Position numbers and translations under genes: made by a program. The notes under the pieces are model-generated. The model saw only the letters and a list, made by a program, of their open reading frames with translations. It was not told the DNA's origin and searched no databases. DNA of 43,792 bases from a virus: IMG/VR virus record IMGVR_UViG_3300027759_002180, positions 1 to 43,792 of that record. One strand, 5' to 3'. Each line of letters begins with the position of its first letter. Within the stretch, counting starts at the first letter, position 1. Of this stretch, positions 4,451 through 22,862 are shown piece after piece.

Positions 4451-4834
4451 TTATCCTACTTGTTTAATTTGTTTAATTAAATCTCTTGTTGAGCCTACGA
4501 ATACCGCTTTGTCTACATTCACTACAGTCTGTTCTTTGATTGGTGACAAATCTCTTTTTCTCCTTTGCAACTCAAGTAAATCTTTATTAATGTCAGACAT
4601 ATTTTTAATTAATGTGGCTGCAACTTCATATGCTCTTGGATGATCCGTTGCTTTTGCTACCATAAGAATATTATCTACCGCAACTCTACCCTTTTCGGCT
4701 AACTCACGAATATTGTTTCTTGCGAATTCAAAATCCGAATCCACATCTGTTGGAACAATTTCAACTATAGAAGATTCGTCTTCTGCTAGTGGTTGAACTC
4801 CAAAGATGTTGGATAGATTTTCATTAGTTTTCAA
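4451..4834 (-). CDS. 16: Terminase small subunit gp16
   Basis: The 127-aa product fits the T4-like small terminase, which recognises DNA and stimulates gp17. The core has a helical segment with A-R-N-N-I-R-E-L-A-E-K-G, then A-T-D-H-P-R-A-Y-E-V, then a coiled coil with L-L-E-L-Q-R-R-K-R-D-L, as in cyanophage gp16. An upstream ATG at 4894 would give 147 aa, but that extension lies entirely inside the preceding fibre gene in another frame. I prefer a TTG at 4834 (L-K-T-N-E-N), which overlaps the fibre stop as TTGA and has AGGGTG a few bases upstream. The TTG start is inference. The gene ends one base before the Dps gene. Confidence 0.85.
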   Translation of the reverse strand: MKTNENLSNIFGVQPLAEDESSIVEIVPTDVDSDFEFARNNIRELAEKGRVAVDNILMVAKATDHPRAYEVAATLIKNMSDINKDLLELQRRKRDLSPIKEQTVVNVDKAVFVGSTRDLIKQIKQVG

Positions 4835-7085: not shown

Positions 7086-7993
7086 CAGGCTTCACCAAAA
7101 GGATTATTTTCCGTGAAGTCTAATATTCCATCAGCTTCAGTTTCTATTCTAACATTGTCTGCGATATCTTCAAATATACTATTACCAACTTGTGAATCAT
7201 CATTGTATGATATGGACCTTCTCAATGTATTACTTGTATTACCGCGAACATTACCAGTAACAAAAGAGCCTTGTACCCGAATAATATCAACTGATGAATG
7301 TGCAGTATAAGAATAAACAATAGCTTGTGCATTTGCTGTCGCTAATGAAGAACCTTGATATATGATTTCTCCAGGAACAAAAGAGCCAGTTCCTGCAGGA
7401 AACACTGTTGTATTTGCGAGAGGCAATGATGAACGTTTGTAGCTATCAAATATCTGGTTATCAATTTCATCAACGCCAGTGGAGATAATTTCTTCACTAA
7501 AGACAAACTGTTTCAACTTCAAAGCATACACATAAACATTGCCGCCGCGACCACGACCTAATGTGTAGAACATTGCTTGATTGTTTTCGTGTTCTACAAA
7601 CGATATCTCAAAGAAATTTTGTAATAGAGGAATATAAACTAAGTCGCCTTCTCTAGGTCTAATTAAAGATGTACCTAAAGATGCAAATCTTCTACGTGAC
7701 ATTAGTAGTGTTACTTCATCTCTAATCTCTAAACCAAATTTGGATATGAAGTCGCCTTCGCCATCCATACCACTAACATTTTCCAAATACATTTCAATTC
7801 CGTAAGCACTACGAAATTCTTTTAATGTATCTTCACCATAGAGCATATCTACTTGGTCTCTTGTCGTTTGTGGAAGATAATAAACATCCATGCCATGAAT
7901 TTGCATAGCTTCAATCACCAAATCTTCTACTAGTAATTGCTCACTAGTTATTTGATGTTGTGGAAAATTATTAAAGTAGAAATTCGTTGGCAT
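7085..7993 (-). CDS. 14: Neck protein gp14
   Basis: This 302-aa product is the T4-like gp14, which with gp13 closes the head after packaging and joins head to tail. It begins with N-F-Y-F-N-N-F-P and continues with E-D-L-V-I-E-A-M-Q-I-H-G-M-D-V-Y-Y-L-P, a hallmark of cyanophage and T4-like gp14. R-P-R-E-G-D-L-V-Y-I-P-L near 112-123 is also family-typical. An inserted beta module of about 60 residues (roughly 195-255, with F-V-P-G-E-I-I-Y-Q-G and V-Q-G-S-F-V-T-G-N) also occurs in gp8 and the gp7-like protein of this window. It lies two bases after gp13 and overlaps gp15 by one base. Confidence 0.93.
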   Translation of the reverse strand: MPTNFYFNNFPQHQITSEQLLVEDLVIEAMQIHGMDVYYLPQTTRDQVDMLYGEDTLKEFRSAYGIEMYLENVSGMDGEGDFISKFGLEIRDEVTLLMSRRRFASLGTSLIRPREGDLVYIPLLQNFFEISFVEHENNQAMFYTLGRGRGGNVYVYALKLKQFVFSEEIISTGVDEIDNQIFDSYKRSSLPLANTTVFPAGTGSFVPGEIIYQGSSLATANAQAIVYSYTAHSSVDIIRVQGSFVTGNVRGNTSNTLRRSISYNDDSQVGNSIFEDIADNVRIETEADGILDFTENNPFGEA

Positions 7994-7995
7994 GT

Positions 7996-8952
7996 TTAGC
8001 CCATAAAGATTTCGCTAGGCATACTGCTGATGGTATACATTTCTTCTTCTAGTTTGTCCAACTCCACTTGTGCTTCTTGCATGATTCTTGGACCATCTAG
8101 TGTTACACCACCAGGCATTTGAATGCCAGCAAACTTAGAAAGATTGGTACCCCATTGATATTTAATTTTAGCTGTAGCGTAATTCTTCAAAAATTTATCA
8201 TTCCAAACATCCGTAACACCAGCTTTTGTCGCTGTATTAGCTGTAATGTTTGTTGTTAAACTACTTGCAATAGTAATACTTGTCGGAGAATTGATTGTAC
8301 GAATCTGAACTTCTTGACCACTAGATAGTGTAATAATGTCGTTTTCAATAACTTCTTGGTCAAATATTGTTCCTGTTCCAGTCAAAGTATTGTTGCTTGT
8401 TGTGCCAGTTATTGTACCCGTCAAAGTAACTGTATCTGGGCGCATCGCACGATAGCACTCCACAACAACATACTGACCAACCTGTAAGTCTCTAGACCAA
8501 TCAATGTCTAAGAAAATCTTATTTTGTTTACGGTTAAATCTGAATAGTGGTGTACCAGAGAACAATAGATTCAATGTGCGAATGTGTTGCATGGTAATTT
8601 CATATGACACATACGACACGGATGTGAAGTCATACAAATCATGCAAACGCAACTGATAGCGCAAGTCAAACATATTGACCGATGAAGAAGACTGGTCAAA
8701 TGGTATGATTCCCGTAACAAAAATTACTGGATCTGGGCAATAAATCCATCTGCGGTCAATATCAGCTTGAGTGATTTGATGCTTCATATACATTTGTTCG
8801 CAACCATCAAAATGATAGTCTTCAAAGAATTGTAATGCATCATCAATTCTGTCTTCAACTTGGTCATCATCCACATTGATTTGGATTACTGGATGACCTA
8901 ATCTGCGTAGGCAGTAGTCTTTGAATGTCGCTCTAGTTGTGGGTTTAGCCAT
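7996..8952 (-). CDS. 13: Neck protein gp13
   Basis: This 318-aa product is T4-like gp13, a head-completion or neck protein. The N-terminus A-T-F-K-D-Y-C-L-R-R-L-G-H-P and then D-D-D-Q-V-E-D-R-I-D-D-A-L-Q are strong family signatures, as is the C-terminal segment K-Y-Q-W-G-T-N-L-S-K-F near 265. Residues about 174-244 are an insert rich in Thr and Ser (L-T-G-T-G-T-I-F through N-I-T-A-N-T-A-T) that splits the usual junction after the C-Y-R-A-M segment. A related module is visible near the C-terminus of the gp7-like protein. GGGAA precedes the start, and a perfect TATAAATA box lies about 27 bases upstream. It is the first gene of a gp13-gp14-gp15 unit. Confidence 0.93.
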   Translation of the reverse strand: MAKPTTRATFKDYCLRRLGHPVIQINVDDDQVEDRIDDALQFFEDYHFDGCEQMYMKHQITQADIDRRWIYCPDPVIFVTGIIPFDQSSSSVNMFDLRYQLRLHDLYDFTSVSYVSYEITMQHIRTLNLLFSGTPLFRFNRKQNKIFLDIDWSRDLQVGQYVVVECYRAMRPDTVTLTGTITGTTSNNTLTGTGTIFDQEVIENDIITLSSGQEVQIRTINSPTSITIASSLTTNITANTATKAGVTDVWNDKFLKNYATAKIKYQWGTNLSKFAGIQMPGGVTLDGPRIMQEAQVELDKLEEEMYTISSMPSEIFMG

Positions 8953-8978
8953 TTATAGTTCCCAATAGTTTTATTATC

Positions 8979-8986
8979 TATTTATA
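8979..8986 (-). promoter_or_regulatory. T4-type late promoter (TATAAATA) upstream of gp13
   Basis: The minus strand reads GTATAAATAGATA, a perfect match to the T4 late element TATAAATA, in the 64-base gap between the 74-aa gene and gp13. In T4 this element is read by RNA polymerase carrying gp55 and gp33. It would drive the gp13-gp14-gp15 unit and possibly gp16, dps and gp17. It is the best-matching box in the window. Confidence 0.7.
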
Positions 8987-9016
8987 CTATTACAATATAG
9001 CAATATTACCCATTTC

Positions 9017-9241
9017 CTAATCTTTTTCAGTTACAATTATAGCAACTTTGTCAACCCAAATTAAACGACCATAACAGGCAATATTCCATTTAGTTTGGCC
9101 ATATTCCTCAGTACATTCAGTAAAAGTCTCGCCTATAAGTCTAACATCGGTAGCTAAATGTTCTACTCCATTCTCAAAAATGCGCCACACCAGATCGGAG
9201 CCATTGTGTTTGGTGTTAAATCTGATGTGATACTTTTTCAT
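9017..9241 (-). CDS. Small conserved hypothetical protein
   Basis: This 74-aa protein has no assigned function. It begins MKKYHIRFNTKHNGSDLVWR, continues with I-F-E-N-G-V-E-H-L, and contains T-K-W-N-I-A-C-Y-G-R. The pattern of alternating charged and hydrophobic residues suggests one small beta-rich domain with no membrane segment. I recall similar short proteins in T4-like aquatic phages, but cannot check this here. Its ATG overlaps the stop of the upstream APS kinase fusion by four bases (ATGA), so it is probably translationally coupled to it. It lies just before the gp13 promoter. Confidence 0.7.
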   Translation of the reverse strand: MKKYHIRFNTKHNGSDLVWRIFENGVEHLATDVRLIGETFTECTEEYGQTKWNIACYGRLIWVDKVAIIVTEKD

Positions 9242-10092
9242 TTTAGTCCGAGTTCTTTGCGAATGTTTGTTGCAGAAATTGCATGTGTCGCATCATCAAA
9301 AACTTCTTGTTCAATTTTGTAACCCACATCTCTACCATATGTGATGTTTGTGATGTTTGGCACCAGTAATATTTCATACTGACCTTGATAGACTGGATCC
9401 AAATCTCGTTTGATAAATTCTTTAACTTGATTAGCCTCAAAAGGATTTGAACCATTCCATCCTTGACAATCCCTAATCATAATGCAAACTTGCCCAGTCT
9501 TAGCAATTGATCTATCAAACAAAGCACGATGACCTGGATGCCATGGTTGCCAACGACCCAACATCTCAACAGTTTCTTTTTTCCAATCAAATGTTGGTCT
9601 ACGGCGATCATAAAGAATATGTTCACCAACAAATTCTACCCACTTCTCAGCATTCATTTCTGTGATACGGAAATCATAAACATCTGGTGGTGTAAATGCT
9701 TTGTTAGTATCTTCATATCTTCCTGCATCAATTGTATCCATCCAAATGGTCCAATCTGCTTTGAAGTTATTACGCATCTCTGGTAAAGGCGCAACAAAAT
9801 CACAAATAACAAAATCGCCAGTGCATTTGATTGCAAAATCTAACATTCGCAAACTTTGACGAATGCGACCTTCTTTAGAAAAATCCCAATCGTTAAATTT
9901 TCGGCGAACATCATCAGCATTAAACCAATCTACTTTTGATTTGTAAGTAGCTGGCATTCTTTCCATTTGATCCATACGCCATTTTGGCATACTGCTTAAA
10001 CTGCTATTTTGTTCCAAGTACTTTTTCAATCTCTCAGCAAAATAAGTTTTACCTGATCCAGGCAATCCCATAATAAGTATTCTCATATTCAT
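9238..10092 (-). CDS. APS-kinase-like / HxGH nucleotidyltransferase fusion enzyme
   Basis: I place the start at the ATG at 10092, because GGAG lies six bases upstream; a TTG at 10104 lacks this spacing. The product is 284 aa. The first 150 residues resemble APS kinase (CysC), which makes PAPS from APS and ATP: P-loop G-L-P-G-S-G-K-T at 9-16, F-N-A-D-D-V-R-R-K-F in the place of the family's D-G-D-x-V-R, then D-F-V-A-P and I-W-M-D-T. The second half has G-R-W-Q-P-W-H-P-G-H, N-P-F-E-A-N and a final I-S-A-T-N-I-R, the motif set of NMN adenylyltransferase or cytidylyltransferase-type enzymes. ATP sulfurylase would instead show Q-x-R-N-x-x-H-x-x-H. It lies downstream of a sulfotransferase and a methyltransferase. 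Domain families are fairly sure; the substrate of either half is not known. Confidence 0.8.
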   Translation of the reverse strand: MNMRILIMGLPGSGKTYFAERLKKYLEQNSSLSSMPKWRMDQMERMPATYKSKVDWFNADDVRRKFNDWDFSKEGRIRQSLRMLDFAIKCTGDFVICDFVAPLPEMRNNFKADWTIWMDTIDAGRYEDTNKAFTPPDVYDFRITEMNAEKWVEFVGEHILYDRRRPTFDWKKETVEMLGRWQPWHPGHRALFDRSIAKTGQVCIMIRDCQGWNGSNPFEANQVKEFIKRDLDPVYQGQYEILLVPNITNITYGRDVGYKIEQEVFDDATHAISATNIRKELGLK

Positions 10093-10107
10093 ATTAAACT
10101 CCAAAAA

Positions 10108-10707
10108 TTATTTGTACAATGTGGAAAATCTTCCTGGCTTATGCACTTTGATAAAAATATTAACGCTTTCCGCAACATTGGCCATAGTGTTTAAGTTTAT
10201 ATCTAGTTGTTTTGGACCAAGAAGACCTTCTTGTTGTTGCTTTAACCAATAACCAATAATGTTATGCGATACATCATAAACTTCAAGATCAACATTATTC
10301 ATTACACCAAATGTACTATCACTTAATCCTCTTTCAATCGATTCGTGATTAACCTTTTGGTCAAATAACGCAAATGTTTTAGGTGTTAATACTCTAACAT
10401 GTGTATAGTCGTTCCATTGATTGTCACAGCGATGATGCGGTACGTTGATATACCATTCGGCACCATCTTTACTGACACGGTACATCTCTTTAATAATTTT
10501 TGTAAAGACTTTTGGATCTTGTCCTAAGTGTTCTAAGATATTATCTGCGGTAATCTTTTCAAAAAAATCGTCTTCATATGGCCAAGGTGTTACTTCAAAA
10601 TCTAATACTTCATCTGGATTACATTTTTTTTCAACGTCTACATTCCAATGGTCGTTTAGTTTTTTAAAACCACATCCCATATTTAATTTTGTTAATTCGG
10701 GTGTCAT
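10108..10707 (-). CDS. SAM-dependent methyltransferase (class I, type 11-like)
   Basis: I choose the ATG at 10707 because AAAGGA sits about seven bases upstream; an ATG at 10731 would overlap the sulfotransferase gene. The product is 199 aa. It opens with L-N-M-G-C-G-F (SAM-binding motif I), has an acidic D-V at the end of the second strand, then D-N-I-L-E-H-L (motif IV region, as in Methyltransf_11) and E-M-Y-R-V-S-K-D-G. This is the usual fold of small-molecule or sugar methyltransferases found in glycan gene clusters; the acceptor cannot be read from sequence. The ribosome-binding site overlaps the sulfotransferase stop, so the two genes are tightly linked. A role in methylating a glycan is inference. 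Confidence 0.8.
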   Translation of the reverse strand: MTPELTKLNMGCGFKKLNDHWNVDVEKKCNPDEVLDFEVTPWPYEDDFFEKITADNILEHLGQDPKVFTKIIKEMYRVSKDGAEWYINVPHHRCDNQWNDYTHVRVLTPKTFALFDQKVNHESIERGLSDSTFGVMNNVDLEVYDVSHNIIGYWLKQQQEGLLGPKQLDINLNTMANVAESVNIFIKVHKPGRFSTLYK

Positions 10708-10717
10708 AATATTTCCT

Positions 10718-11521
10718 TTAAATCCAAGCATTCCAAAAAATTTCTCTGTTATATTGTTCGTATAGTTCTAGTCCAAGATACTCAACACAATTTACTGTTG
10801 TTTTATCTAGAGAGTTTTTAATTTTATGAAGATTTGGTAAACCAACTGCAAGATCATTATATTTTTCTTCTTGAGTGATGTTATTGAAATCATGTTCATA
10901 ATTATCTAGTTCCAAAAATTCATAGATTCTTTTCATCTGTGCTTTTGGTGTGTTACACAATCTATTATAGTCTACAAATAAAAGTCTATCTAGATATCCC
11001 ATAGTGACAGCATCTTTTACATTCCTATGATTTAGTCCAAGAACACCTCCTGGACCAGCATAATACATTGCTCTTGATGCTATGTTTGATCCTGGTCCTA
11101 AGTTTGAATCAACACCAGTAACAAATAATGGATTACTTCTTCTCATTTTTTCAAAAGAAGATAATATTTCTGCTGGATTTCTAACACACACAATCATCTT
11201 CATTTTTCTTTGTAGAATTTCTTCTAACACTGGAATATGTGAAATCCAAGTCCTGTCTTTATCAATTATGATTGGTTTATCAATATGTGAATGATAACCA
11301 GCAAGTACTCCTTTGATTACACCAATCTTAGCTGAAGTGTTTGTATATTCTTTGTTAGCTTCAAAATTATTCCAACCATAATTAATATTACCAACAAGTG
11401 CCGATAAAGAACTTACCGCTTCACCATGAATTTTTGGATTTTGTTTGAAGATATTAGTGAGTAAAGTTGATCCTGATCTAGGCAAGCCAACAATAAAGTG
11501 CAAAGTTTTTTGATTTTCCAT
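10718..11521 (-). CDS. P-loop sulfotransferase
   Basis: The start at 11521 (MENQKTLHFIVG) is chosen because GGAAAG lies about eight bases upstream; the frame extends to a TTG at 11536 that would cover this site. The product is 267 aa. G-L-P-R-S-G-S-T-L-L at about 12-21 is the 5'-phosphosulfate loop that binds PAPS. M-I-V-C-V-R-N-P-A-E-I-L-S-S-F, near residue 110, matches the 3'-phosphate-binding motif (R-x-P-x-x-x-x-x-S). The family transfers sulfate from PAPS to a hydroxyl or amine, often on a glycan or a tyrosine. Neighbours are a glycosyltransferase upstream and a methyltransferase and APS-kinase-like enzyme downstream, so a sulfated sugar product is plausible. The acceptor is unknown. There is no signal peptide, which suggests a cytoplasmic enzyme. 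Confidence 0.85.
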   Translation of the reverse strand: MENQKTLHFIVGLPRSGSTLLTNIFKQNPKIHGEAVSSLSALVGNINYGWNNFEANKEYTNTSAKIGVIKGVLAGYHSHIDKPIIIDKDRTWISHIPVLEEILQRKMKMIVCVRNPAEILSSFEKMRRSNPLFVTGVDSNLGPGSNIASRAMYYAGPGGVLGLNHRNVKDAVTMGYLDRLLFVDYNRLCNTPKAQMKRIYEFLELDNYEHDFNNITQEEKYNDLAVGLPNLHKIKNSLDKTTVNCVEYLGLELYEQYNREIFWNAWI

Positions 11522-11550
11522 AATTTTTCTTTCCAATAAAATAACAATAA

Positions 11551-12588
11551 TTAAGTTTCATTATAAGTTGAACAAAATTTTTCCAACTCATTTCGTATTT
11601 CCAAAAACGGCTCATCCCATTTTCCAAAAGTTTGTTGCCTAAAAACAGTTGTTGTTTCTTCATACCAAGGACTATGTTTATCCCCATGTGCCCAAATATG
11701 GTATGGTAAAATAGGCAATATCACCCACGTTGGTTTGCCCATTGCTGATGCAAGATGTGCTATACTAGTGCATGACGTTATGACCAAATCAAGATTTTCA
11801 ATACATGCCGCAGTATCTTCCCATGATATTAATAAATGTTGTAAGTCACTTATTTCATCAGGCAATTCAATTAAATCGTTATCCTTTTGTAAAGAATAAA
11901 ATTGTATGTCTTTAAAATCTTTATGTAGATTGATTAAGTTTTTAGGAGAGAATACTCTAAACTGTTGATGTTCAAACTTTGGATTACCACTCCAACGAAT
12001 GCCTACCTTAAGTTTTTTAGTATTCAACATATTTTTCCACAAATCAACACTTTCGTGTTTTGCAAATATATATGGTTGATTTGGCATTGTGTCTACGGTA
12101 TGACCAAATAACCAACTACAACTAAAACCTGGAATCCAAAAGTCGTGATATGTTGATTTTACCTGATTCTTTTTTATACATGAATGCACACCAGGTATAC
12201 GTGAAAATAAAGAGTGCACCGTTTCATCACAGCATAGAATACATTTGCCTCCTCTGTTCCAGATTTCGGTGGCAAATCTAGCGTAAATCATATTATCACC
12301 ATAACCTCCCTCAAGATTAATGATGACCGTTTTTCCGGTTAAATCGCTTTGATCCCAAATAAGTTTTGTTGTAGGTAGTTTTTCATTTCCATAAACTTTT
12401 AAAGGTCGGCCATATTCAAGACATTGAAAGCCCTCTTGAAATTTACCTTGATTGATAAGAAACCAGCCTCTATTGAATAATGCTCTAGGTTCATTAGGCA
12501 TTTCTTCATAGAGTTGTTCACATATTTTCCATGCTTCATCAAATCTGCCTCTTATCATTAAATTTAATTGTTGGTCAATTAAATGCAT
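11551..12588 (-). CDS. TPR-containing glycosyltransferase (GT9/heptosyltransferase-like)
   Basis: The 345-aa product has two parts. Residues 1-65 hold tetratricopeptide-like helices (G-R-F-D-E-A-W-K-I-C then N-R-G-W-F-L-I-N-Q-G-K-F-Q-E-G). The rest resembles GT-B enzymes of the GT9 type seen fused to TPRs in many bacteria: L-I-W-D-Q-S-D-L-T-G-K-T, L-E-G-G-Y-G-D-N-M-I-Y-A-R-F, K-V-G-I-R-W-S-G-N-P, and the donor-site stretch V-I-T-S-C-T-S-I-A-H-L-A-S-A-M-G-K-P near 270-290. TPR-linked transferases often act on proteins, so glycosylation of a virion protein is possible, but a lipopolysaccharide or capsule target is equally open. GGAGA lies about ten bases before the ATG. It follows the RCC1 adhesin gene by 48 bases and leads into the sulfotransferase gene. 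Confidence 0.82.
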   Translation of the reverse strand: MHLIDQQLNLMIRGRFDEAWKICEQLYEEMPNEPRALFNRGWFLINQGKFQEGFQCLEYGRPLKVYGNEKLPTTKLIWDQSDLTGKTVIINLEGGYGDNMIYARFATEIWNRGGKCILCCDETVHSLFSRIPGVHSCIKKNQVKSTYHDFWIPGFSCSWLFGHTVDTMPNQPYIFAKHESVDLWKNMLNTKKLKVGIRWSGNPKFEHQQFRVFSPKNLINLHKDFKDIQFYSLQKDNDLIELPDEISDLQHLLISWEDTAACIENLDLVITSCTSIAHLASAMGKPTWVILPILPYHIWAHGDKHSPWYEETTTVFRQQTFGKWDEPFLEIRNELEKFCSTYNET

Positions 12589-12636: not shown

Positions 12637-15600
12637 TTATTTTATTCCTACTGAATGAGCACCGCCCATGTCAATTGCCATCCAAGAGCCTGAACCTATC
12701 TGTACTGGTGATGATTTATTGTAATAAGTTCCATCACCTAATCGTCCGTCAGAGTTATATCCCCAAGTAAATAATTTTCCATCTTGTCTAATAGCGCCCA
12801 CAAAATTTCCGCTAGCAGATGCGGAAACTGCTGTCCAAGAACTTGATCCTATTTGTATTGGTGATGGATAACCGTAGAAGCTACTACCTCCATTGCCAAG
12901 TACTCCATAAATATTAAGTCCCCAACTAAACAATAAACCATTCGATTTAATAGCCGCTGTATGCATACGACCAGCACTAACTGCTGACCAAGAACTTGAT
13001 CCAACTTGTACTGGCGATGGTCTATTGTAGGGGCTCCCAGCATATCCATCGCCTATTTGACCATAAGAATTTGAGCCCCAAGCAAATAACGCTCCATCGG
13101 ATCTAATAGCCGCGGTATGATAACCACCAGCACTAACTGCTGTCCAAGAACTTGATCCTATCTGTACTGGTGAAGAATAATCATATTGATTACCAAGCCC
13201 CAATCTATAATAATATCCACGACCCCAAGCAAATAATCCACCATCTTGTCTAATCGCCAATGTATGATAAATACCAGCACTAACTGCTGACCAAGAACTT
13301 GATCCAACTTGTACTGGTGATGATCGCGGATCAGCAGGTGACGGTCCTCCACCTATTATTACTGGTGATGACCTATTAGTAGTAGTTTTATCACCAACTT
13401 GGCCATCATTGTTTTGACCCCAAGCAAATAATAAACCATTCGATTTAATAGCCGCTGTATGCTCACGACCAGCACTAACTGCTGACCAAGAACTTGATCC
13501 AATTTGTACGGGTGATGATCTAGTAGTAGTAGTTCCATCACCTAATCGACCGTAATTGTTATAGCCCCAAGCAAATAATAAACCATTCGATTTAATAGCC
13601 GCTGTATGATTACGACCAGCACTAACTGCTGACCAAGAACTTGATCCTACTTGTACTGGTGAATATCTGTCAACGCCATAATAAATACTACCCAATTGAG
13701 CAAAATTATCTTTACCCCAATTAAATAATAAACCATCGGATCTAATAGCCGCTGCATGATAACCACCAGCACTAACTGCTGTCCAAGAACTGTATCCTAT
13801 TGGTACTGGTGATGAACTACTAGTGAAAGTTCCATTACCTAATTGTCCGTTGGGATTTGTTCCCCAAGCAAACATCTGATCTGCTCTTAAGCCCGCCGGC
13901 GCCGCTGCAATGGCTACTGTAAATTGCCAGCCCGCAGAAACGTCTTTCCAGTATTTTACACTACTGGCAAACGATGGACCAGTTATTCTTATCGGTGAAA
14001 ATCTAGTAGTAGTAGTTCCATCACCCAATTGACCTAGACCATTTGCTCCCCAAACCCATAGGGTTCCATCCGATCTAATAGCAGTGCCATGATTAAGGCC
14101 AGCTGATGTTTTTTGCCAATATAATCCATGTACTACATTTTTTGGAGTTGTTCTGTTGAGTATTGAACTATCGCCCACTTGCCCAGCATCATTTGAACCC
14201 CAAACATACAACTCATTATTCACGGTAATTCCTGCTGTACAAAATTGACCAGCACTAACTGTTGTCCAAGAACTTGATCCAATTTGTACGGGTGATGATT
14301 TATCAGTTGTAGTTCCATCACCAAGTTGACCCTGGGCGGCGGTACCCCAAGTAAATAATTTTCCATCCGATCTAATAGCCGCTGTATGATAACCGCCAGC
14401 AGAAACTGCTGTCCAAGAACTTGATCCTATTTGTACGGGAGATGATCTATTGTAATAAGTTCCATCACCCACTTGACCATTCATATTCATACCCCAAGCG
14501 AACAATTTTCCATCTTGTCTAATAGCAACTGCATGTTTTCTGCGAATACCAATTGCTGTCCAAGAACTTGAACCAATTTGTATTGGTGATGGATTAACGT
14601 AAGGAGCTCCATAAGTTCCATTGCCTAATTGACCATAATTATTATTACCCCAAGTAAATAATTTTCCATCTTGTCTAATAGCCATTACGCTTGCATATCC
14701 AACATTGACTGCTGTCCAAGAACCTGAACCTACTTGTATCGGTGATGTAATACTATAATACCCATAATTTCCAGTACCTTGTCCTAAACTACCACTGCCG
14801 TTCCAACCCCATGTCCATAAAGTTCCATCCGATCTAATAGCCGCTGTATTATACTTACCAGAACTGACTGTTGTCCAAGAACTTGATCCTATTTGTACGG
14901 GAGATGATCTATTAGTAGTACTTCCATCACCAACTTGCCCATATTGATTTCTACCCCAGCCAAACAATAAACCATCTGATCTAATACCAAACGAGGTCTC
15001 GGCATGCATAACTGCTGTCCAGGAATGTGTTCCTAATTGTACCGGTGATGATCTTTTAAGGTTGGAGTTTCCAGCAGTTCCATCGCCCCATTGTCCATCG
15101 AAATTGCCGCCCCAAACGAATAATGTGCCATTCTGTCTAATAGCCATCGTGCCTTCATATCCTGTTGAAACTTTAGAATAGAAAACATCCGGAACAGAGA
15201 TAGCTCCTGTTCCTATTAATACTGGTGAACTCGTTGCTGCAATATTACTTGGACCTGGGCTAGAAATTACGACTGGCGATGATCTACTATTTGTAGTTTG
15301 ATTGCCCAATTGATAATAGTCATTTCGACCCCAAATATAAAATTCTCCATTTTGGTTAAAAGCTCCTGTATTTCCGTATGAAGCGGAAACTGCTGTCCAA
15401 GAACTTGATCCTATTTGTACTGGTGATGATCTAGTAGTAGTAGTTCCATCACCTAATTGTCCGAAATTGTTATAGCCCCAAGCAAATAATGATCCACCGG
15501 ATCTAATAGCGGCGGTATGATGTTGTCCTGCAGAAACTGCTGTCCAAGAACTTGATCCTATTTGTACTGGTGATGATGTTACTGGAGTAGCTCCAGTGCA

Positions 15601-17151
15601 TTGTCCTTCAAAATTTCGACCCCAAGCAAATAATCCACCATCTTGTCTAATCGCCAATGTGTGTTCGCCTCCGCCAGCAACTGCTGTCCAAGAACTGGAT
15701 CCTATTTGTACAGGTGAATATCTATTGGTAGTGGTTCCATCACCTAATGGTCCCCAGTTATTTCTTCCCCAAGTAAATAATGCTCCATCTGATCTAATAG
15801 CAACTGCGTGAGAGTATCCTGCAGAAACTGCTGACCAAGAACTTGATCCTATCTGTACTGGTGACGTTCTATAAGTAACAGTTCCATCACCCAATTGTCC
15901 ACTTGGATTTGCGCCCCAAGTAAATAATGCTCCATCTGATCTAATAGCCGCATTGAATTTTTTACCACCACTAACTGCTGTCCAAGAACTTGATCCAATT
16001 TGTACTGGCGATGATCTATTAGTATAAGTTCCATCACCAAGTTGAGCATAAAGGTTTCCGCCCCAAGTAAATAATTTTCCATCTGATTTAATAGCGACTG
16101 TGTGAAATTGACCAGAACTAACTGCTGACCAAGAACTTGAACCAATTGATACTGGCGACCCTTTCGTGACGGTCGTTTGATCGCCCAACATTCCATAAAC
16201 ATTTCGGCCCCAGGTCATCAATCCACCATCTGTTCTAGTAGCAACTGTGTGATATGTACCTGTTATAACGGATGCCCATTTAAGTGATGGAGTGGTGCCC
16301 AATTGTCCGGCACTGTTACTACCCCAAACATATAGTTCACCGTCCGATGTAATAGCTTGCGTATGAGAACCACCAGCACTAACTGCTGTCCAAGAACTTG
16401 ATCCAATTTGTACTGGTAATGATCGCTCACCACTCTGTCCATTACCAAGTCGCCCATCAGTCCCTAAGCCCCAAGTAAATAATTTTCCATCCGATCTAAT
16501 AGCCGCTGTATGATAATCCCCAGAACTAATTACTGACCAAGAAAAAGGAGCTTCATAAACTGAATTACCCAATTGACCAGAACCATTATCACCCCAAGTA
16601 AATAATTTTCCATCCGATCTAATAGCCGTCGTATGACCTCCGCCAGCAGAAACTGCTGTCCAAGAACTTGCTCCTATTTGTACGGGTGATGATTTACGGA
16701 TTTCAGTACCATCACCTAATTGGCCAGAATTATTACTACCCCAAGCAAATAATAAACCATCCGATCTAATAGCCGCTGTATGATAACCGCCAGCAGAAAC
16801 TGCTGTCCAAGAACTTGCTCCTATCTGTACAGGAGATGGTCTATTGTAATCAGTTTCATATGGAATTCCATCACCTATATTACCAAAGTAGTTACTGCCC
16901 CAAGTATATAAAAAATTATCTGGTCCAAAAGATACGGAACCTAAGGCTGCAAAGAGTGTTCCTACATCAGCACCGGAAACTTTAAGATTTGTGGTACCAA
17001 AAGGAGTTCCAAGTGTGGCATCAGCATAAAAATTGGATAAGTCCGTACCACTAATTTTAAAATTAACATCGTCTCTTTTTGTAGTTGCACCTATAGGCTC
17101 AAATAAAGCATCAAGGTCAGTAGACGTTACTCTAAAATTAGTGTTTGCCAT
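12637..17151 (-). CDS. Giant RCC1-repeat beta-propeller adhesin, 28 blades
   Basis: This 1504-aa protein is built almost wholly of RCC1-type repeats of about 50 residues. Each has S-S-P-V-Q-I-G-S-S-S-W-T-A-V-S-A-G, then H-T-A-A-I-R-S-D-G, then L-F-A-W-G-x-N-x-x-G-Q-L-G-D-G. I count 28 W-G strands. RCC1 propellers have seven blades, so 28 would fill four propellers. The protein starts with an L-Y-T-W-G strand and ends with the H-S-V-G-I-K half-blade, as in propellers closed by strands from both ends. Residues 1-75 carry three degenerate copies of an N-F-R-V-T-S-T-D-L-D-A-L-F unit, likely the virion attachment part. Extra linkers lie between blades 12/13, 20/21 and 24/25; the blade-length stretches between 3/4 and 5/6 are short. 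There is no signal peptide or membrane segment. It lies three bases after a fibre-chaperone-like gene, so a receptor-binding tail protein is the likely role. Confidence 0.85.
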   Translation of the reverse strand: MANTNFRVTSTDLDALFEPIGATTKRDDVNFKISGTDLSNFYADATLGTPFGTTNLKVSGADVGTLFAALGSVSFGPDNFLYTWGSNYFGNIGDGIPYETDYNRPSPVQIGASSWTAVSAGGYHTAAIRSDGLLFAWGSNNSGQLGDGTEIRKSSPVQIGASSWTAVSAGGGHTTAIRSDGKLFTWGDNGSGQLGNSVYEAPFSWSVISSGDYHTAAIRSDGKLFTWGLGTDGRLGNGQSGERSLPVQIGSSSWTAVSAGGSHTQAITSDGELYVWGSNSAGQLGTTPSLKWASVITGTYHTVATRTDGGLMTWGRNVYGMLGDQTTVTKGSPVSIGSSSWSAVSSGQFHTVAIKSDGKLFTWGGNLYAQLGDGTYTNRSSPVQIGSSSWTAVSGGKKFNAAIRSDGALFTWGANPSGQLGDGTVTYRTSPVQIGSSSWSAVSAGYSHAVAIRSDGALFTWGRNNWGPLGDGTTTNRYSPVQIGSSSWTAVAGGGEHTLAIRQDGGLFAWGRNFEGQCTGATPVTSSPVQIGSSSWTAVSAGQHHTAAIRSGGSLFAWGYNNFGQLGDGTTTTRSSPVQIGSSSWTAVSASYGNTGAFNQNGEFYIWGRNDYYQLGNQTTNSRSSPVVISSPGPSNIAATSSPVLIGTGAISVPDVFYSKVSTGYEGTMAIRQNGTLFVWGGNFDGQWGDGTAGNSNLKRSSPVQLGTHSWTAVMHAETSFGIRSDGLLFGWGRNQYGQVGDGSTTNRSSPVQIGSSSWTTVSSGKYNTAAIRSDGTLWTWGWNGSGSLGQGTGNYGYYSITSPIQVGSGSWTAVNVGYASVMAIRQDGKLFTWGNNNYGQLGNGTYGAPYVNPSPIQIGSSSWTAIGIRRKHAVAIRQDGKLFAWGMNMNGQVGDGTYYNRSSPVQIGSSSWTAVSAGGYHTAAIRSDGKLFTWGTAAQGQLGDGTTTDKSSPVQIGSSSWTTVSAGQFCTAGITVNNELYVWGSNDAGQVGDSSILNRTTPKNVVHGLYWQKTSAGLNHGTAIRSDGTLWVWGANGLGQLGDGTTTTRFSPIRITGPSFASSVKYWKDVSAGWQFTVAIAAAPAGLRADQMFAWGTNPNGQLGNGTFTSSSSPVPIGYSSWTAVSAGGYHAAAIRSDGLLFNWGKDNFAQLGSIYYGVDRYSPVQVGSSSWSAVSAGRNHTAAIKSNGLLFAWGYNNYGRLGDGTTTTRSSPVQIGSSSWSAVSAGREHTAAIKSNGLLFAWGQNNDGQVGDKTTTNRSSPVIIGGGPSPADPRSSPVQVGSSSWSAVSAGIYHTLAIRQDGGLFAWGRGYYYRLGLGNQYDYSSPVQIGSSSWTAVSAGGYHTAAIRSDGALFAWGSNSYGQIGDGYAGSPYNRPSPVQVGSSSWSAVSAGRMHTAAIKSNGLLFSWGLNIYGVLGNGGSSFYGYPSPIQIGSSSWTAVSASASGNFVGAIRQDGKLFTWGYNSDGRLGDGTYYNKSSPVQIGSGSWMAIDMGGAHSVGIK
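14363..14423. repeat. 61-bp exact repeat inside the RCC1 gene, copy A
   Basis: These 61 bases are identical by direct reading to 16757-16817, 2.4 kb away in the same gene. Many other blades share shorter exact stretches of 30-50 bases around the A-V-S-A-G and I-R-S-D-G segments. Such repeats can lose or gain blades by homologous recombination or replication slippage. Confidence 0.9.
16757..16817. repeat. 61-bp exact repeat inside the RCC1 gene, copy B
   Basis: Second copy of the 61-base stretch at 14363-14423. It covers the end of one blade and the start of the next (I-R-S-D-G back to S-S-W-T-A-V-S-A-G-G-Y-H). Both copies are in the same reading frame, so recombination between them would delete or add whole blades without a frameshift. 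Confidence 0.9.
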
Positions 17152-17154
17152 GTT

Positions 17155-17637
17155 TTAATAATCGGTGAAGACAGGCCATGTAAGATTATTTAAATCTTCT
17201 ATTGTAGAAATTGATAAATTAGTAATCGCTGTTTTAAAAGAATTCAACTTATTTATATCTTCATGTTGAGAAATACCTTTTTCAACCAATTTCTCCGCTC
17301 TTGTGATTCTTTCACCAACATTTTTTAGCATAAATTCTTTTCGTTGTTGTGCTTGATTAATACGCATTTCGTCTGTCACAACAGGCTTTAATGAAACTTC
17401 ACGGTGCTCAATAACTTCACCATCAACAACGGTATATGTTGGAAATTCTGAAAGGTTATGTGTTTCACTATTGTACTCTGGATTGTGTCTTACGATTTTA
17501 ACGAATCCATTTTCTTTCATAGTTTCTTCATTGTTTTTGGCAACAATATCAAAATTATTAATTCCATTCCAAAATTTAGGTATTAAATCATAAACACCCT
17601 TAACTTCACCATTAACTAAATTTGCATAAACAGTCAT
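17155..17637 (-). CDS. Probable tail fibre assembly chaperone
   Basis: This 160-aa protein resembles phage tail assembly chaperones. It has an N-terminal beta-rich part (Y-A-N-L-V-N-G-E-V-K-G-V-Y), a helical middle (Q-Q-R-K-E-F-M-L-K-N-V-G-E-R-I) and the closing pattern I-E-D-L-N-N-L-T-W-P-V-F, with the W-P near the C-terminus that is typical of the family. Such proteins help neighbouring fibres fold and usually do not stay in the virion. The ATG overlaps the stop of the 1742-aa fibre gene by four bases (ATGA) and the gene ends three bases before the RCC1 gene, so the client could be either. The family call is moderate because these proteins are short and divergent. Confidence 0.55.
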   Translation of the reverse strand: MTVYANLVNGEVKGVYDLIPKFWNGINNFDIVAKNNEETMKENGFVKIVRHNPEYNSETHNLSEFPTYTVVDGEVIEHREVSLKPVVTDEMRINQAQQRKEFMLKNVGERITRAEKLVEKGISQHEDINKLNSFKTAITNLSISTIEDLNNLTWPVFTDY

Positions 17638-20600
17638 TTGTTTTCTCCCTTAATTTGTTTTTTCAATTCATCAATTTGTTTTTGTTGTTCTTTTATAGCT
17701 TCAATCAGTAAACCAACTATGCTGTCATATGAAACAGATTTTATTCCATCTTCATTTGTATTAACAACTTCGGGTACGATTGGTTCAACTTCTTGTGCTA
17801 TTAGACCAATTGCTTTATTGTTATTGTCTATCCATTCAAAACTTACACCTCTAAGTTGTAAAACTTTTTCTAGTGAATTTTGAATAGTCTCAATATTTTG
17901 TTTGCTATTTATATCCGACAACGAATTGAATATGGTTGAATTCAATGTTCCTGTTGAAGGATTAAAATACAATTTGGTACTGCTACCCTTTGCTGTTTGT
18001 ATACTGCCTACCGCGCCAACAAATACTGGATAGAAAGATGCATTAGATGCTGTATCATCTGTTGCATTAATATTGACAGCACTAGAAATTAATCCTGCAC
18101 CTACGTTTGCTTGATAGGCTGATGTTACAGATATTAATCCAGCACCAACGTTGGCTGATCTGGCTGCAACTTCAACTCCCACGTTAGCTTGATAGGCTGA
18201 TGTTAATGATATAACCGCGGCACCTACGTTAGCTGATCTGGCTGCAACTTCAACTCCCACGTTAGCTTGATACGCTGATGTTACAGTAATTAGTCCAGCA
18301 CCTACGTTGGCTTGATACGCTGATGTTACAGTAATTAGTCCAGCACCTACGTTGGCTTGTCCTGTTGTTACAGCACTGTTGGCTGCATTATAAGCTAAGT
18401 TGGCTTGTGCAAATGCATTGTTTGCTTGATTATAAGCTGAGTTGGCTTGATTTCTTACCCAAGCATCTACACCGCCGCTTGCACTATTGGCTGCATTGTA
18501 AGCTAAGTTTGCTTGATTAAATACATTTATTATGTTATTGCTTAATGTAATTACACTTGCACCAACGTTAGCTTGTCTAGCCGCAATTTCAGTAATCAAA
18601 CCTGCGCCAACGTTTGCTTGGTAAGCACTAGTAACTGTAATTATAGTAGCACCAAGATTAGCATTATCAGCTTGTCTTCCTGATACAATACTAGCGGCTA
18701 AAGTTGTATTAGCTGTGTTTGCATCAATTCTTGCCGATCCAACGTTAGCTTGATATGCTGATGTTACAGATATTAATCCAGCACCTACGTTTGCTTGACC
18801 GGCTAATGCGGCTGCACCAGTATTTGCCTGTGCATTACTATAAATTGTATTTGAGTAATCTAATGGATCAAGACCACGTAATGTAATTACGTTTGTGATT
18901 AGATTTGCGCTTAGTGTTGCAACTCTTGTGTTTGCAATATCAATGATATTTGTTGGTTCATTATTTGTTAACAAATTGTCAAACAAGTAATATTTACCAT
19001 CGGAAAATTTACGAATCAACCCGGTATGATTATTTGGTGTATTAGCGTAGTGACCAATGAAACCAATATCCAACAAATCGCTTTGATTTTGTGTTCCTAA
19101 TTGTATTAGTGTATCAGTAACACTTAATGACGTTACGTTAAGTGTTGTTGTAGTTCCAGAAATTGTTAAGTTGCCAGAAACAGTTAAGTCGCCAGCAATA
19201 GAACCGCCAGTTGTTGGTAAAGCATTGTTAGCTTTATTGAATGCTGAATTGGCATGATTAAAAGCATTACTTGCGCTGGTCGTTAATGTGATTACACTTG
19301 CACCAACGTTTGCTTGTCCAAAAGCAACATCTGCAATTCTAGCCGCTCCAACATTTGCTTCATATGCAGATTTGGTACTAATAAGTCCAGCACCAACGTT
19401 TGCTTGATACGATGATGTTACTGAAATAACGGCTGCACCAACGTTTGCTTGCCCTGTTGTTACTGCTGAGTTGGCCGCATTATAAGCAAGATTAGCTTGA
19501 TTAAATACATTGGTTATATTATTGGATACTGTAATAATACTTGCACCAACGTTCGCTTGACTTGTAGTTACCACTGAGTTGGCTGCATTATATGCTAAGT
19601 TAGCCTGATTAAATACGTTAGTTATATTGTTGGACAAAGTAATAACGCTTGCACCAACGTTTGCTTGTCCTTGTGCAATTGCAGAACCTACGTTTGCTTG
19701 ATATGCTAATGTAACAGTATTAGCTGTTGATATTAATCCTGCACCAACGTTAGCTTGTGCGGCGGCTGAATCAGTAATTCTACCAGCACCAATATTAGCG
19801 GCTAAAGAAGTGTTGGCATTACCAGTATCTAATCTTAATTGTCCAACGTTTGCTTGGTAATTGTTAGTAACAGTGATTAATCCAGCGCCTACGTTAGCTT
19901 GATATGCTAATGTTACAGTATTAGCTGTTGATATTAATCCTGCACCCACGTTTACTTGATATGCACTTGTGACTGTAATTAATCCTGCACCAACGTTTGC
20001 TTGATATGCTAATGTAACAGTATTAGCTGTTGATATTAATCCTGCACCAACGTTAGCTTGCCCAGAAGCAACATCAGCAATTCTACCAGCACCAATATTA
20101 GCGGCTAAAGAATTATTAGCTGTGTTTACATCAATTCTTAATTGACCAACGTTTGCTTGACCTTGACCAATAGCAGATCCAACGTTTGCTTGATATGCGG
20201 ATGTTAATGAAATAACTGCGGCACCAACGTTTGCTTGTCCGGTTGTTACTGCTGAGTTGGCGGCTGTATAGGCAAGATTAGCCTGATTGAAAACATTGGT
20301 TATATTATTGGATACAGTAATGACACTTGCGCCAACATTTGCTTGACCCTGACCAATAGCAGATCCAACGTTTGCTTGATATGCTGTCGTAATCGTAATT
20401 AAACCAGCCCCAACGTTTGCTTGTGCGGCCGCTGAATCAGCAATTCTACCAGCACCAATATTAGCGGCTAAAGAAGTATTAGCGTTGCCTGTGTCTAATC
20501 TTAACTGACCAACGTTTGCTTGATAATTATTTGTGACAGTAATTAATCCAGCACCTACGTTTGCTTGATATGCTGATGTTACAGATATTAATCCTGCACC

Positions 20601-22862
20601 TACGTTTGCTTGACCAGCTAAAGCGGCTGCACCAGTATTTGCTTGATATGCAGAAGTTAATGAAATAACTGCGGCACCAGTATTTGCTTGTGCATTACTA
20701 TAAATTGTATTTGAGTAATCTAATGGATCAAGACCGCGCAACGTTATTACATTTGTAACTAGGTTTGCGCTTAGTGTTGCAACTCTTGTGTTTGCAATGT
20801 CAATAATATTAGTTGGATCAACATTTGTTTGTAAATTATCAAACAAGTAGTATTTACCATCAGAGAATTTGCGAATCAATCCTGTGTGATTATTTGGTGT
20901 ATTTGCATAACGACCAATGAAACCAATATCCAACAAATCTGTTTGATTTTCTTTACCTAATTGAATAAGAGTATCTGAAACACTCAATGAAGTAACATTA
21001 AGTGTTGTTGTAGTTCCATTAATAATTAAATTACCAGTAACTGCTAAGTCACCAGTAATTGTACCACCAGTTTTTGGTAGCGCATTATTTGCTGTAGTGT
21101 ATGCTAAGTTAGCCTGTGCGAATGATGAATTTGCCCTATCATACGCAGAGTTAGCTTGATTTCTTACCCAAGCATCAACACCACCGGCGGCATTATTTGC
21201 AGCCGTAAATGCTAAATTAGCCTGATTAAATACATTAGTTATGTTATTAGACAAAGTAATAACACTTGCGCCAATATTGGCTTGTCTAGCCGCCACTTCA
21301 GTAATTAATCCAGCACCAGCATTTGCTTGATATGCGGCAGTAACGGTGATTAATCCAGCCCCTACGTTTGCCTGACCAGTTGTTACTGCTGAATTGGCTG
21401 CATTGAAAGCAAGATTAGCTTGATTAAAGACATTAGTTATATTATTGGATAAAGTAATTACACTTGCACCAACGTTTGCTTGCCTTGCGGCTATTTCAGT
21501 AATTAATCCAGCACCAACGTTTGCTTGGTAAGCACTAGTGACTGTGATAAGTCCAGCACCAACGTTTGCTTGTCCCGATGCAACATCAGCAATTCTAGCG
21601 GCTCCTACATTTGCTTGTCCAGTTGTTACTGCTGAATTGGCTGCTGTGTACGCCAAGTTTGCTTGATTAAATACGTTAGTTATATTATTAGATGCTGTAA
21701 TAATACTTGCGCCAACATTTGCTTGTCCTGCCGCAACATCCGCAATTCTAGCGGCTCCTACGTTTGCTTGGTACGCTGATGTTACAGCAATAATACCAGC
21801 GCCAACGTTTGCTTGTCCTGTAGTTACGGCTGTATTAGCCGCATTATATGATAAGTTTGCTTGATTGAATACGTTAGTTATATTGTTGGACAAAGTAATA
21901 ACACTTGCGCCAACGTTTGCTTGTCCAGAAGCAACATCTGCAATTCTAGCGGCTCCCACATTTGCTTGATATGCTGATGTAACGCCAATTAAGCCAGCGC
22001 CAACGTTTACTTGATATGCACTTGTGACTGTAATTAATCCTGCACCAACGTTTGCTTGTCCTGTAGTTACGGCATTATTTGCGGCTGTAAACGCTAAGTT
22101 GGCTTGTGCAAAAGATGAAACCGCAACACCATAACTTGTGTTTGCTTGTGTATATGCTAGATTAGCTTGTGCAAAAGAACCGTAAGAAGTATTTGCTTGA
22201 TTGAATGCTAGATTGGCTTGATTGAATGCGTTGAGTGCAATGTTAGCACTAGCCGATGATGATACAGATGGTGCACCAGTTGTTGATTGAAAAACAAAAT
22301 CAGATGCGCCAGAGATTACAATCTGCCCACCATTATTTCCAATAACAATACCATCAATGTTGATTGAACCCGGACCAACAAACAAATCTTTCCAACGTTT
22401 TGATGCTGAACCTAAACTATAAACATTATCTGTTGTTGGAGTTACATTACCAGTTACAATTACATTCCCAGAAATTGTACCACCAGTAGAATTGAATTTT
22501 GTATTAGCGGCATCATAAGCTAAGTTAGCCTGTGCGAATGATGAATTTGCTCTATCATATGCCGAGTTAGCTTGATTTCTTACCCAAGCATCAACACCAC
22601 CGGCGGCATTATTTGCGGCTGTAAACGCTAAGTTGGCTTGTGCGAATGATGAGTTTGCTCTATCAAATGCTAAATTTGCTTTTGTGAATGCGAGTTGATC
22701 GAACTGTGTTGATTGTAAAGCAAGAGGAAAACCACCAGGAGTTGTTCCATCGTGAACAACAATTGTTTTCTTATCGGTATCTACGGTAATCTCAGCCACT
22801 GCTCCAGTAAATGTTGCTGTTTGGGCTGTATTTCCTCTTCTTAGCTGTAATTGCGTTGGCAT
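17634..22862 (-). CDS. Giant tail fibre with S74 intramolecular chaperone domain
   Basis: This 1742-aa protein starts MPTQLQLRRGNTAQTATFTG and has V-D-T-D-K-K-T-I-V-V-H-D-G-T-T near residue 30, the N-terminal domain that anchors many phage fibres to baseplates. The stalk is built of A-F-x-Q-A-N-L-A-Y-x-A-A-N heptads and about 40 Q-A-N-V-G units of 11 or 15 residues. A 140-residue beta block (from G-D-L-x-V-x-G-N-L to D-P-L-D-Y-S-N) occurs twice. The last 94 residues, from S-D-I-N-S-K at about 1649, are a peptidase S74 domain with G-L-I-A-Q-E-V-E and P-E-V-V. In the S74 family the Ser-Lys pair cleaves just before the Ser after helping the trimer fold. AAGGAT precedes the ATG, and a late-promoter-like box lies about 25 bases upstream. 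It is probably a trimeric adsorption fibre. Confidence 0.85.
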   Translation of the reverse strand: MPTQLQLRRGNTAQTATFTGAVAEITVDTDKKTIVVHDGTTPGGFPLALQSTQFDQLAFTKANLAFDRANSSFAQANLAFTAANNAAGGVDAWVRNQANSAYDRANSSFAQANLAYDAANTKFNSTGGTISGNVIVTGNVTPTTDNVYSLGSASKRWKDLFVGPGSINIDGIVIGNNGGQIVISGASDFVFQSTTGAPSVSSSASANIALNAFNQANLAFNQANTSYGSFAQANLAYTQANTSYGVAVSSFAQANLAFTAANNAVTTGQANVGAGLITVTSAYQVNVGAGLIGVTSAYQANVGAARIADVASGQANVGASVITLSNNITNVFNQANLSYNAANTAVTTGQANVGAGIIAVTSAYQANVGAARIADVAAGQANVGASIITASNNITNVFNQANLAYTAANSAVTTGQANVGAARIADVASGQANVGAGLITVTSAYQANVGAGLITEIAARQANVGASVITLSNNITNVFNQANLAFNAANSAVTTGQANVGAGLITVTAAYQANAGAGLITEVAARQANIGASVITLSNNITNVFNQANLAFTAANNAAGGVDAWVRNQANSAYDRANSSFAQANLAYTTANNALPKTGGTITGDLAVTGNLIINGTTTTLNVTSLSVSDTLIQLGKENQTDLLDIGFIGRYANTPNNHTGLIRKFSDGKYYLFDNLQTNVDPTNIIDIANTRVATLSANLVTNVITLRGLDPLDYSNTIYSNAQANTGAAVISLTSAYQANTGAAALAGQANVGAGLISVTSAYQANVGAGLITVTNNYQANVGQLRLDTGNANTSLAANIGAGRIADSAAAQANVGAGLITITTAYQANVGSAIGQGQANVGASVITVSNNITNVFNQANLAYTAANSAVTTGQANVGAAVISLTSAYQANVGSAIGQGQANVGQLRIDVNTANNSLAANIGAGRIADVASGQANVGAGLISTANTVTLAYQANVGAGLITVTSAYQVNVGAGLISTANTVTLAYQANVGAGLITVTNNYQANVGQLRLDTGNANTSLAANIGAGRITDSAAAQANVGAGLISTANTVTLAYQANVGSAIAQGQANVGASVITLSNNITNVFNQANLAYNAANSVVTTSQANVGASIITVSNNITNVFNQANLAYNAANSAVTTGQANVGAAVISVTSSYQANVGAGLISTKSAYEANVGAARIADVAFGQANVGASVITLTTSASNAFNHANSAFNKANNALPTTGGSIAGDLTVSGNLTISGTTTTLNVTSLSVTDTLIQLGTQNQSDLLDIGFIGHYANTPNNHTGLIRKFSDGKYYLFDNLLTNNEPTNIIDIANTRVATLSANLITNVITLRGLDPLDYSNTIYSNAQANTGAAALAGQANVGAGLISVTSAYQANVGSARIDANTANTTLAASIVSGRQADNANLGATIITVTSAYQANVGAGLITEIAARQANVGASVITLSNNIINVFNQANLAYNAANSASGGVDAWVRNQANSAYNQANNAFAQANLAYNAANSAVTTGQANVGAGLITVTSAYQANVGAGLITVTSAYQANVGVEVAARSANVGAAVISLTSAYQANVGVEVAARSANVGAGLISVTSAYQANVGAGLISSAVNINATDDTASNASFYPVFVGAVGSIQTAKGSSTKLYFNPSTGTLNSTIFNSLSDINSKQNIETIQNSLEKVLQLRGVSFEWIDNNNKAIGLIAQEVEPIVPEVVNTNEDGIKSVSYDSIVGLLIEAIKEQQKQIDELKKQIKGENK
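18815..19235. repeat. Duplicated 140-aa fibre module, copy 2
   Basis: Encodes the block starting T-T-G-G-S-I-A-G-D-L and ending D-P-L-D-Y-S-N-T-I-Y inside the 1742-aa fibre. It is closely related to the block at 20675-21095; most residues match (for example S-D-G-K-Y-Y-L-F-D-N-L), but the DNA has diverged at many third positions. The duplication is therefore older than the exact repeats elsewhere in the fibre genes. Edges are approximate. Confidence 0.8.
20675..21095. repeat. Duplicated 140-aa fibre module, copy 1
   Basis: First copy (in protein order) of the beta module of the 1742-aa fibre, with K-T-G-G-T-I-T-G-D-L near its start and N-H-T-G-L-I-R-K-F-S-D-G-K in the middle. A more distant relative of the same module lies in the 547-aa fibre (T-H-H-G-L-V-R-R). 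Edges are approximate. Confidence 0.8.
21796..21902. repeat. 107-bp repeat, copy 2 (1742-aa fibre gene)
   Basis: Identical over 107 bases to 5621-5727 in the 412-aa fibre-like gene. Both lie in the same frame and orientation, so exchange between them would join the two fibres without a frameshift. Confidence 0.9.

Follow-up and report, generated by a model that had tools for sequence, protein, structure and literature searches.

How might a single phage protein arrange 28 RCC1 blades, four times the number in a seven-bladed propeller, along one chain? The window in which the question arises, the whole stretch of 43,792 bases that was analysed, comes from a freshwater T4-like phage. Its tail tube, sheath, sheath stabiliser, terminase, and baseplate wedge could be identified, and the terminase is closest to those of Synechococcus phages (∼53 per cent identity). 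The protein is encoded by the following gene:

12637–17151, minus strand: RCC1-repeat protein of 1504 aa with 28 blades (ATG-started ORF; 28 PF00415 stretches; blade count)

The initial annotation had counted 28 W-G strands and proposed that they supply four complete propellers. The count can be taken as virtually certain: two of the 30 'WG' dipeptides are the second within a blade, leaving 28 blade W-G strands, and PF00415 matches 28 separate stretches, each above the cut-off, two of them once neighbours in the frame are included. Matches of the protein to RCC1 families have E values of 7e-251 or lower, PF25390 and PF00415 are both over the cut-off, and the protein carries the repeat signature by which the RCC1/BLIP-II family is recognised; the solved proteins nearest by sequence are UVR8 (best, E ∼5e-52), HERC2, RPGR, and RCC1. 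A normal unit runs in the order C (LFxWG), D (SSPVQIG), A (WTAVSAG), and B (HTAAIRSDG), with 49 residues from W-G to W-G. The A-V-S-A-G...H...A-I segment that had been placed before every W-G strand precedes 27 of the 28, the 28th such segment forming the C-terminus.

Four blades depart from this unit in a complementary way. Blades 3 and 5, which went unreported earlier, are short and lack the fourth strand (the SPVQIG-type D), and blades 12 and 24 are long and contain the D strand twice (SSPVVISS...SSPVLIG in blade 12, SSPVIIGGG...SSPVQVG in blade 24). Within each long blade the loop from the preceding C to the first D is of the usual kind, as is the linker between the second D and the A that comes next. 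This is the layout expected if a complete A-to-D propeller had been inserted in the C–D loop of a host blade. The longer spacings that follow blades 12, 20, and 24 had already been remarked upon as a puzzle, and they are indeed present (73, 62, and 65 aa); those at 12 and 24 are explicable as the ends of inserted rings, and that at 20 is of another kind, with a single D strand and its extra length partly in the hairpin. Blade 20 was tried as a third closing bracket and rejected, having one D strand only.

If each short blade is written as an opening and each long blade as a closing bracket, the protein reads ..(.(......)...........).... and parses as 1-3( 4,5( 6-12 )13-24 )25-28, with levels of 7, 14, and 7 blades. 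As W-G spacing alone fails at blade 20, brackets were assigned by C-to-A linker length, with cut-offs (opening up to 24, closing from 37, against a normal 27) chosen from the same data. From short blade 5 to long blade 12 the distance is exactly 7 blades, and from short blade 3 to long blade 24 it is exactly 21. When two opening and two closing brackets are placed at random, 300 of 105,300 placements are balanced with every level a multiple of seven (p=0.0028 for this single protein). The segments delimited in this way are:

16561–16935, minus strand: outer ring, first segment, blades 1–3; blade 3 is short, an opening bracket (41 aa, no SPVQIG-type strand)
16282–16560, minus strand: second level, first segment, blades 4–5; blade 5 is short, an opening bracket (38 aa, no SPVQIG-type strand)
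15250–16281, minus strand: innermost ring, blades 6–12, contiguous; blade 12 has two D strands, a closing bracket (D motifs; bracket parse)
14425–15249, minus strand: second level after the innermost ring, comprising the D strand assigned to blade 5 and blades 13–17, putative ring {4,5,13–17} (14-blade level from the parse; ring split putative)
13342–14424, minus strand: putative ring {18–24}, next in tandem within that bracket; the two D strands of blade 24 make it a closing bracket (D motifs; parse; ring split putative)
12640–13341, minus strand: remainder of the outer ring, made up of the D strand assigned to blade 3, blades 25–28, and C-terminal A/B strands predicted to close on blade 1 (parse)

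These features would be accounted for if the protein were an N-terminal anchor followed by four seven-bladed RCC1-type beta-propellers, nested one within another. A whole propeller, seven A-B-C-D blades, would be inserted in the C–D loop of a blade belonging to another propeller. This host blade would then read short (A-B-C, no D), its C strand running into the first A of the insert, and the last inserted blade would read long, carrying its own D and then that of the host, after which the chain would resume its course round the host ring. The outer ring would thus consist of blades 1–3 and 25–28, enclosing a 14-blade level that in turn encloses ring {6–12}, and the 14-blade level may most simply be divided into rings {4,5,13–17} and {18–24}. 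The second D strand of blade 12 (residues 641–647) would pair with the C strand of blade 5 (residues ∼273–278), and residues 1277–1283 are the proposed partner of the C strand of blade 3 (residues ∼183–188). By count, the two flanking pieces amount to seven blades and complete one domain, as in recursive domain insertion, and the suggestion that the first and last half-blades complement each other survives for the outermost ring, which is now composed of blades 1–3 plus 25–28. Similarity of whole blades at a period of seven gives a weak signal (z=2.1, p=0.02 uncorrected) and for that reason is not relied on.

The bracket rule is not peculiar to this protein. RCC1-encoding stretches are numerous in IMG/VR (at least 599 pattern matches in one scan), and the counts that follow are of complete ORFs grouped into clusters, taken as unfiltered viral cluster representatives and labelled by a fixed automatic rule. 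Single-propeller proteins of exactly 7 blades, counted alike, make up 109 of 176 viral clusters, and the larger clusters peak at 14 (n=6), 21 (n=14), 28 (n=9), and 35 (n=7) blades, with single clusters at 42, 49, and 63. Because the counts of viral relatives peak at multiples of seven, 28 as four times seven is likely to be meaningful, and the protein very probably contains four seven-bladed rings. The distance from an innermost opening to its closing bracket is 7 in 42 of 61 cases among the viral clusters, and the control distance, from a closing bracket to the next opening one, is 7 in 0 of 27. Twenty of the 37 bracket-bearing viral clusters are balanced with every level a multiple of seven, and the other 17 fail the strict automatic parse. 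Among the fully consistent clusters are L018, with seven rings to a depth of 5 in 49 blades, L028 (42 blades), L033, L021, and L080 (35, branched), L058 (28, a linear nest), and L032 (14), a 711-aa protein predicted to read 1( 2-8 )9-14; L057 (42 blades, clustered with L053) is a regular 4/3 nest of depth 5. Shuffles of L033, L028, and L018 matched the rule in 0 of 200,000 cases, and per-protein p-values are not independent of one another, because the rule was spotted by eye from the spacings before testing and the families share ancestry. Across the 20 consistent clusters, the position that most often hosts an inner ring is blade four of seven (20 of 30 insertions).

As an out-of-sample check, the rule was first fixed and two further scans were then run with queries that carry short and long blades and so select for marked blades, not for their positions. 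Two complete proteins fetched in this way fit exactly, and their architectures are of kinds absent from the earlier set. In L326 a single ring carries three inserted rings, ..(......).(......)(......)., and in L287 a single ring carries two, ..(......)..(......).; each has at most 14 per cent of its 7-mers in common with the earlier set. L268 (45 per cent shared 7-mers) shows the pattern of L046 again, L335 and L289 fit in part, and fragments and the L284 proteins from these later scans do not fit. Nested RCC1 genes may also occur in adjacent pairs in one phage, as at L048:5342–14929 (63 blades) with 15015–18341 (21), and L014:1993–6444 (28 blades) with 6491–9700 (20). A different elaboration is seen at L119:6863–14200, where long collagen-like GXT repeats separate the groups of blades of an RCC1 protein.

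Four consecutive propellers (1–7, 8–14, 15–21, and 22–28), with short and long blades incidental, would also amount to 28, and this was the simple string of rings first envisaged. It might be expected from the bacterial relatives: RCC1 proteins recovered from bacterial genomes with the same query mostly have 7 or 14 blades, and many multi-ring ones have long linkers right after blade 7, 14, or 21 and are ordinary tandem rings. Several viral proteins with multiples of seven blades (14, 21, and 28 among them) likewise have few or no brackets (L016, L031, L055, L060, L064), and that of Synechococcus phage BUCT-ZZ01 (L164) has 14 blades and no brackets; nesting is therefore not universal among viral proteins. 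However, no special linker was found at 7, 14, or 21 in the 28-blade protein, its marked blades being 3, 5, 12, and 24, and the pairing of short with long blades at exactly 7 and 21 recurs as a rule in many other clusters; the bacterial set contains two matched bracket pairs only, neither a multiple of seven. The blades of one ring, which in RCC1/BLIP-II proteins are usually, though not by strict definition, consecutive, appear from this pairing not to be so here. Consecutive rings are therefore an unlikely reading of this protein, and on the strength of the blade spacings there is good reason to prefer rings that are nested.

The same pattern could in principle have arisen by chance, from unequal recombination among near-identical repeats together with short-read misassembly. 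The repeats are similar (mean blade identity ∼0.53), metagenomic short-read assemblies may collapse or misjoin repeats, and sister arrays do differ in length: L053:1230–8237 (46 blades) and L057:2003–8458 (42) are one four-blade module apart, L022 (34 blades) and L021 (35) are one blade apart, and in both pairs the balance is broken. Such differences reflect either recent recombination or assembly collapse. Yet the 28-blade gene is identical in four assemblies with differing flanks, recurring in three further samples where all 4515 nt agree and the surrounding contigs differ by 2–25 bases, and thus the array is not the assembly accident of one sample; nor would noise keep counts in multiples of seven, and the balance of brackets, across divergent clusters. 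An origin of the pattern in such noise is accordingly very improbable. Some failures of the parse have evident causes, namely mislabelling of a divergent blade (L023 and the 63-blade protein of L048) and broken or part ORFs (L344, L247, L338). Others appear to be real exceptions: the second gene of L014 has a six-blade level, L053 has one unmatched short blade, and L070 and L284 are irregular.

Structure prediction contributes little to the question. AlphaFold2 gave a mean pLDDT of 31 for blades 4–24 from a single sequence, and for a 21-blade relative (L062), modelled with two further relatives, a mean pLDDT of 56 and a pTM of 0.60, again of low confidence, with weak spots near the predicted crossings (270–294, 621–638, and 776–799). 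Foldseek searches with this low-confidence L062 model returned no propeller; the matches were weak and solenoid-like, their E values lying above 1. These models lend support to no arrangement and count slightly against nesting. The solenoid-like matches might be taken to favour an open array without closed rings, in which the number of repeats would be free, but the L062 model is too poor to count, an open array offers no reason for multiples of seven or for bracket distances in sevens, and the solved relatives identified by sequence are RCC1-type propeller proteins. An open array therefore seems remote. We infer instead closed rings of seven blades each, as the blade counts and bracket levels, all multiples of seven, would suggest.

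In the nested arrangement the chain would cross each junction between rings twice. A pair of strands would thus hold neighbouring rings together, and the resulting string of discs should be stiffer than one joined by single linkers. The usual host blade, fourth of seven and so roughly opposite the entry of the chain, is as expected for an extended array. Such a protein would most likely serve as a stiff, repeat-extended fibre on the tail, for receptor binding or spacing, whose reach would be tuned by the gain or loss of rings, seven blades at a time.

The genes around the array bear on this proposed role, and the features concerned are:

17634–22862, minus strand: large tail fibre gene with an Mtd_N start and S74 C-terminal chaperone (PF18454, PF13884)
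17155–17637, minus strand: 160-aa gene resembling tail fibre assembly chaperones, directly before the RCC1 gene in the direction of transcription (PF02413, E=4.5e-5)
16936–17151, minus strand: N-terminal anchor domain of the RCC1-repeat protein, about residues 1–72 (alignment of 11 sequences)
11551–12588, minus strand: downstream 345-aa gene (an ORF of 341–356 aa stands at the same place in most related loci)
10718–11536, minus strand: sulfotransferase gene (PF00685; place conserved by ORF size)

The gene had been assigned to a fibre array beside a fibre-chaperone-like gene, and both parts of that description hold: it stands in a T4-like tail-fibre cassette directly after the assembly chaperone gene, which PF02413 recognises. 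The order in the window and related loci is fibre, assembly chaperone, RCC1, and then ORFs of about 345, 265, and 200 aa, of which the latter two are sulfotransferase and methyltransferase in the window and in L062; the L062 sulfotransferase domain is confirmed, and the L062 ORF at the ∼345-aa place is weakly glycosyltransferase-9-like. PF16778 proteins take the place of the chaperone in L028, L057, L058, and L080, and in L033 a collagen/S74 fibre precedes the RCC1 gene. A search for the same N-terminus in other phages found ∼72 residues conserved among 11 sequences. This anchor matches PHROG 11610 weakly and has no match in a Pfam search; it is joined to a single seven-blade ring in L079 and to a different, RCC1-free C-terminal domain of ∼100–140 aa at L015:10001–10567, L093:5015–5656, and L095 ∼9999–10645. 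Exchangeable C-terminal parts on one anchor are what would be anticipated if the anchor carried interchangeable adhesins, and both this arrangement and a position in a fibre module beside an assembly chaperone are characteristic of fibre and receptor-binding proteins.

Several other observations concern this region. A kinase-like gene (9238–10104) with a weak APS kinase match (PF01583, E=2.4e-5, KTI12 similar) and a marginal cytidylyltransferase-like match at its C-terminus lies near the sulfotransferase gene; a kinase gene like it is also present in L033, and a sulfotransferase also in L062. Together kinase and sulfotransferase possibly form a sulfation cassette, comprising donor synthesis and transfer, that acts on fibres or host glycans. 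A motif like 'YQANVGAGLITVTSA / QANVGASVITLSNNITNVFNQANLAYNAAN' is repeated in the fibre-region proteins 4831–6069, 17634–22862, and 27979–32532, which suggests that the YQANVGAGLITVTSA/QANVGASVITLSNNITNVFNQANLAYNAAN-like motif is a common shaft repeat exchanged between genes. A ferritin-like (Dps-type) gene (4015–4449; PF00210, E=4.7e-18) adjoins the large terminase gene.

RCC1-like proteins have been found in phage particles before. GAP_001 of phage GAP32 is an RCC1-like virion component (PMC5259590), and gp549 and gp551 of phAPEC6, each named 'DNA condensation protein', appear in the mass-spectrometry table of virion proteins (PMC7247149). The latter differ from the 28-blade protein in being ∼41 kDa, one ring's worth. 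The authors of that study propose a role in ordering DNA, and together with the family name, 'regulator of chromosome condensation', this raises the alternative of rings, nested or tandem, in a DNA-condensing or other intracellular protein. Against such a role, the gene lies directly after fibre and fibre-assembly chaperone genes here and in related loci, and the anchor is common to unrelated C-terminal domains, as in receptor-binding proteins. An intracellular function is therefore rather doubtful, and by analogy with the virion proteomics of other phages, and given the gene cassette, a virion adhesin appears the somewhat better candidate. Taken as a whole, a tail-associated protein of nested rings is the best explanation of the locus and a probable one.

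Parts of this architecture have precedents. RCC1, UVR8, and the RLDs of HERC proteins share, by sequence, the repeat and strand order of the 28-blade protein, but they have one ring of sequential blades per domain, whereas the present protein would have about four with the sequence interrupted. Amplification of propellers from single blades is already known, with recently amplified blades in arrays of up to 47 and RCC1/BLIP-II as the third largest group (Pereira and Lupas 2022; PMC9218822). Those highly repetitive arrays resemble the present one in their recent amplification and differ in that their blades are consecutive, forming a continuum of blade numbers with an example of two neighbouring rings (7+8); 'nested', 'inserted', and 'phage' are absent as words from that paper. 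Recursive domain insertion is likewise known, to as many as six levels, in cyanobacterial RNA polymerase rpoC2 (Protein Sci 2026; PMC13114784), a paper from which the word 'propeller' is absent. There too a domain lies within a domain, but the inserts are other small domains, whereas here the same repeat fold would be put into itself with seven blades conserved at each level. RCC1 repeats lie near fibre genes in Synechococcus phages BUCT-ZZ01 and S-SRM01, as here, and unlike the 28 bracketed blades here the S-SRM01 genes have 6–7 blades and BUCT-ZZ01 has 14 without brackets. Bacterial tandem RCC1 proteins (GTDB loci L167–L241) commonly have multiples of seven blades, as in the present case, but have long linkers after 7, 14, and 21 and no recurring balanced pairs of short and long blades. 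Among open-licence papers no description was found of nested propellers, of a bracket rule that conserves seven, or of either in phages.

There is reason to think that viruses encode a class of proteins in which seven-bladed propellers have probably been inserted recursively into other propellers, taking the form of linear nests, branched trees, and hub-and-spoke arrangements (L326), all readable as brackets. By the automatic rule such proteins would contain up to seven rings (49 blades, depth 5), and relabelling one blade would raise the maximum to about nine (63 blades). If this is correct, the sequence of a propeller protein would reveal its topology through a bracket grammar, and a repeat fold could be extended by inserting rings into rings, not end to end, giving branched, doubly tethered architectures. 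Such proteins would provide a direct test case for repeat-domain evolution and a hard case for structure prediction, and would show designers closed repeat rings that in nature tolerate insertion of a whole ring at a defined loop. They would also offer a candidate explanation of what the abundant viral genes annotated as 'regulator of chromosome condensation' build.
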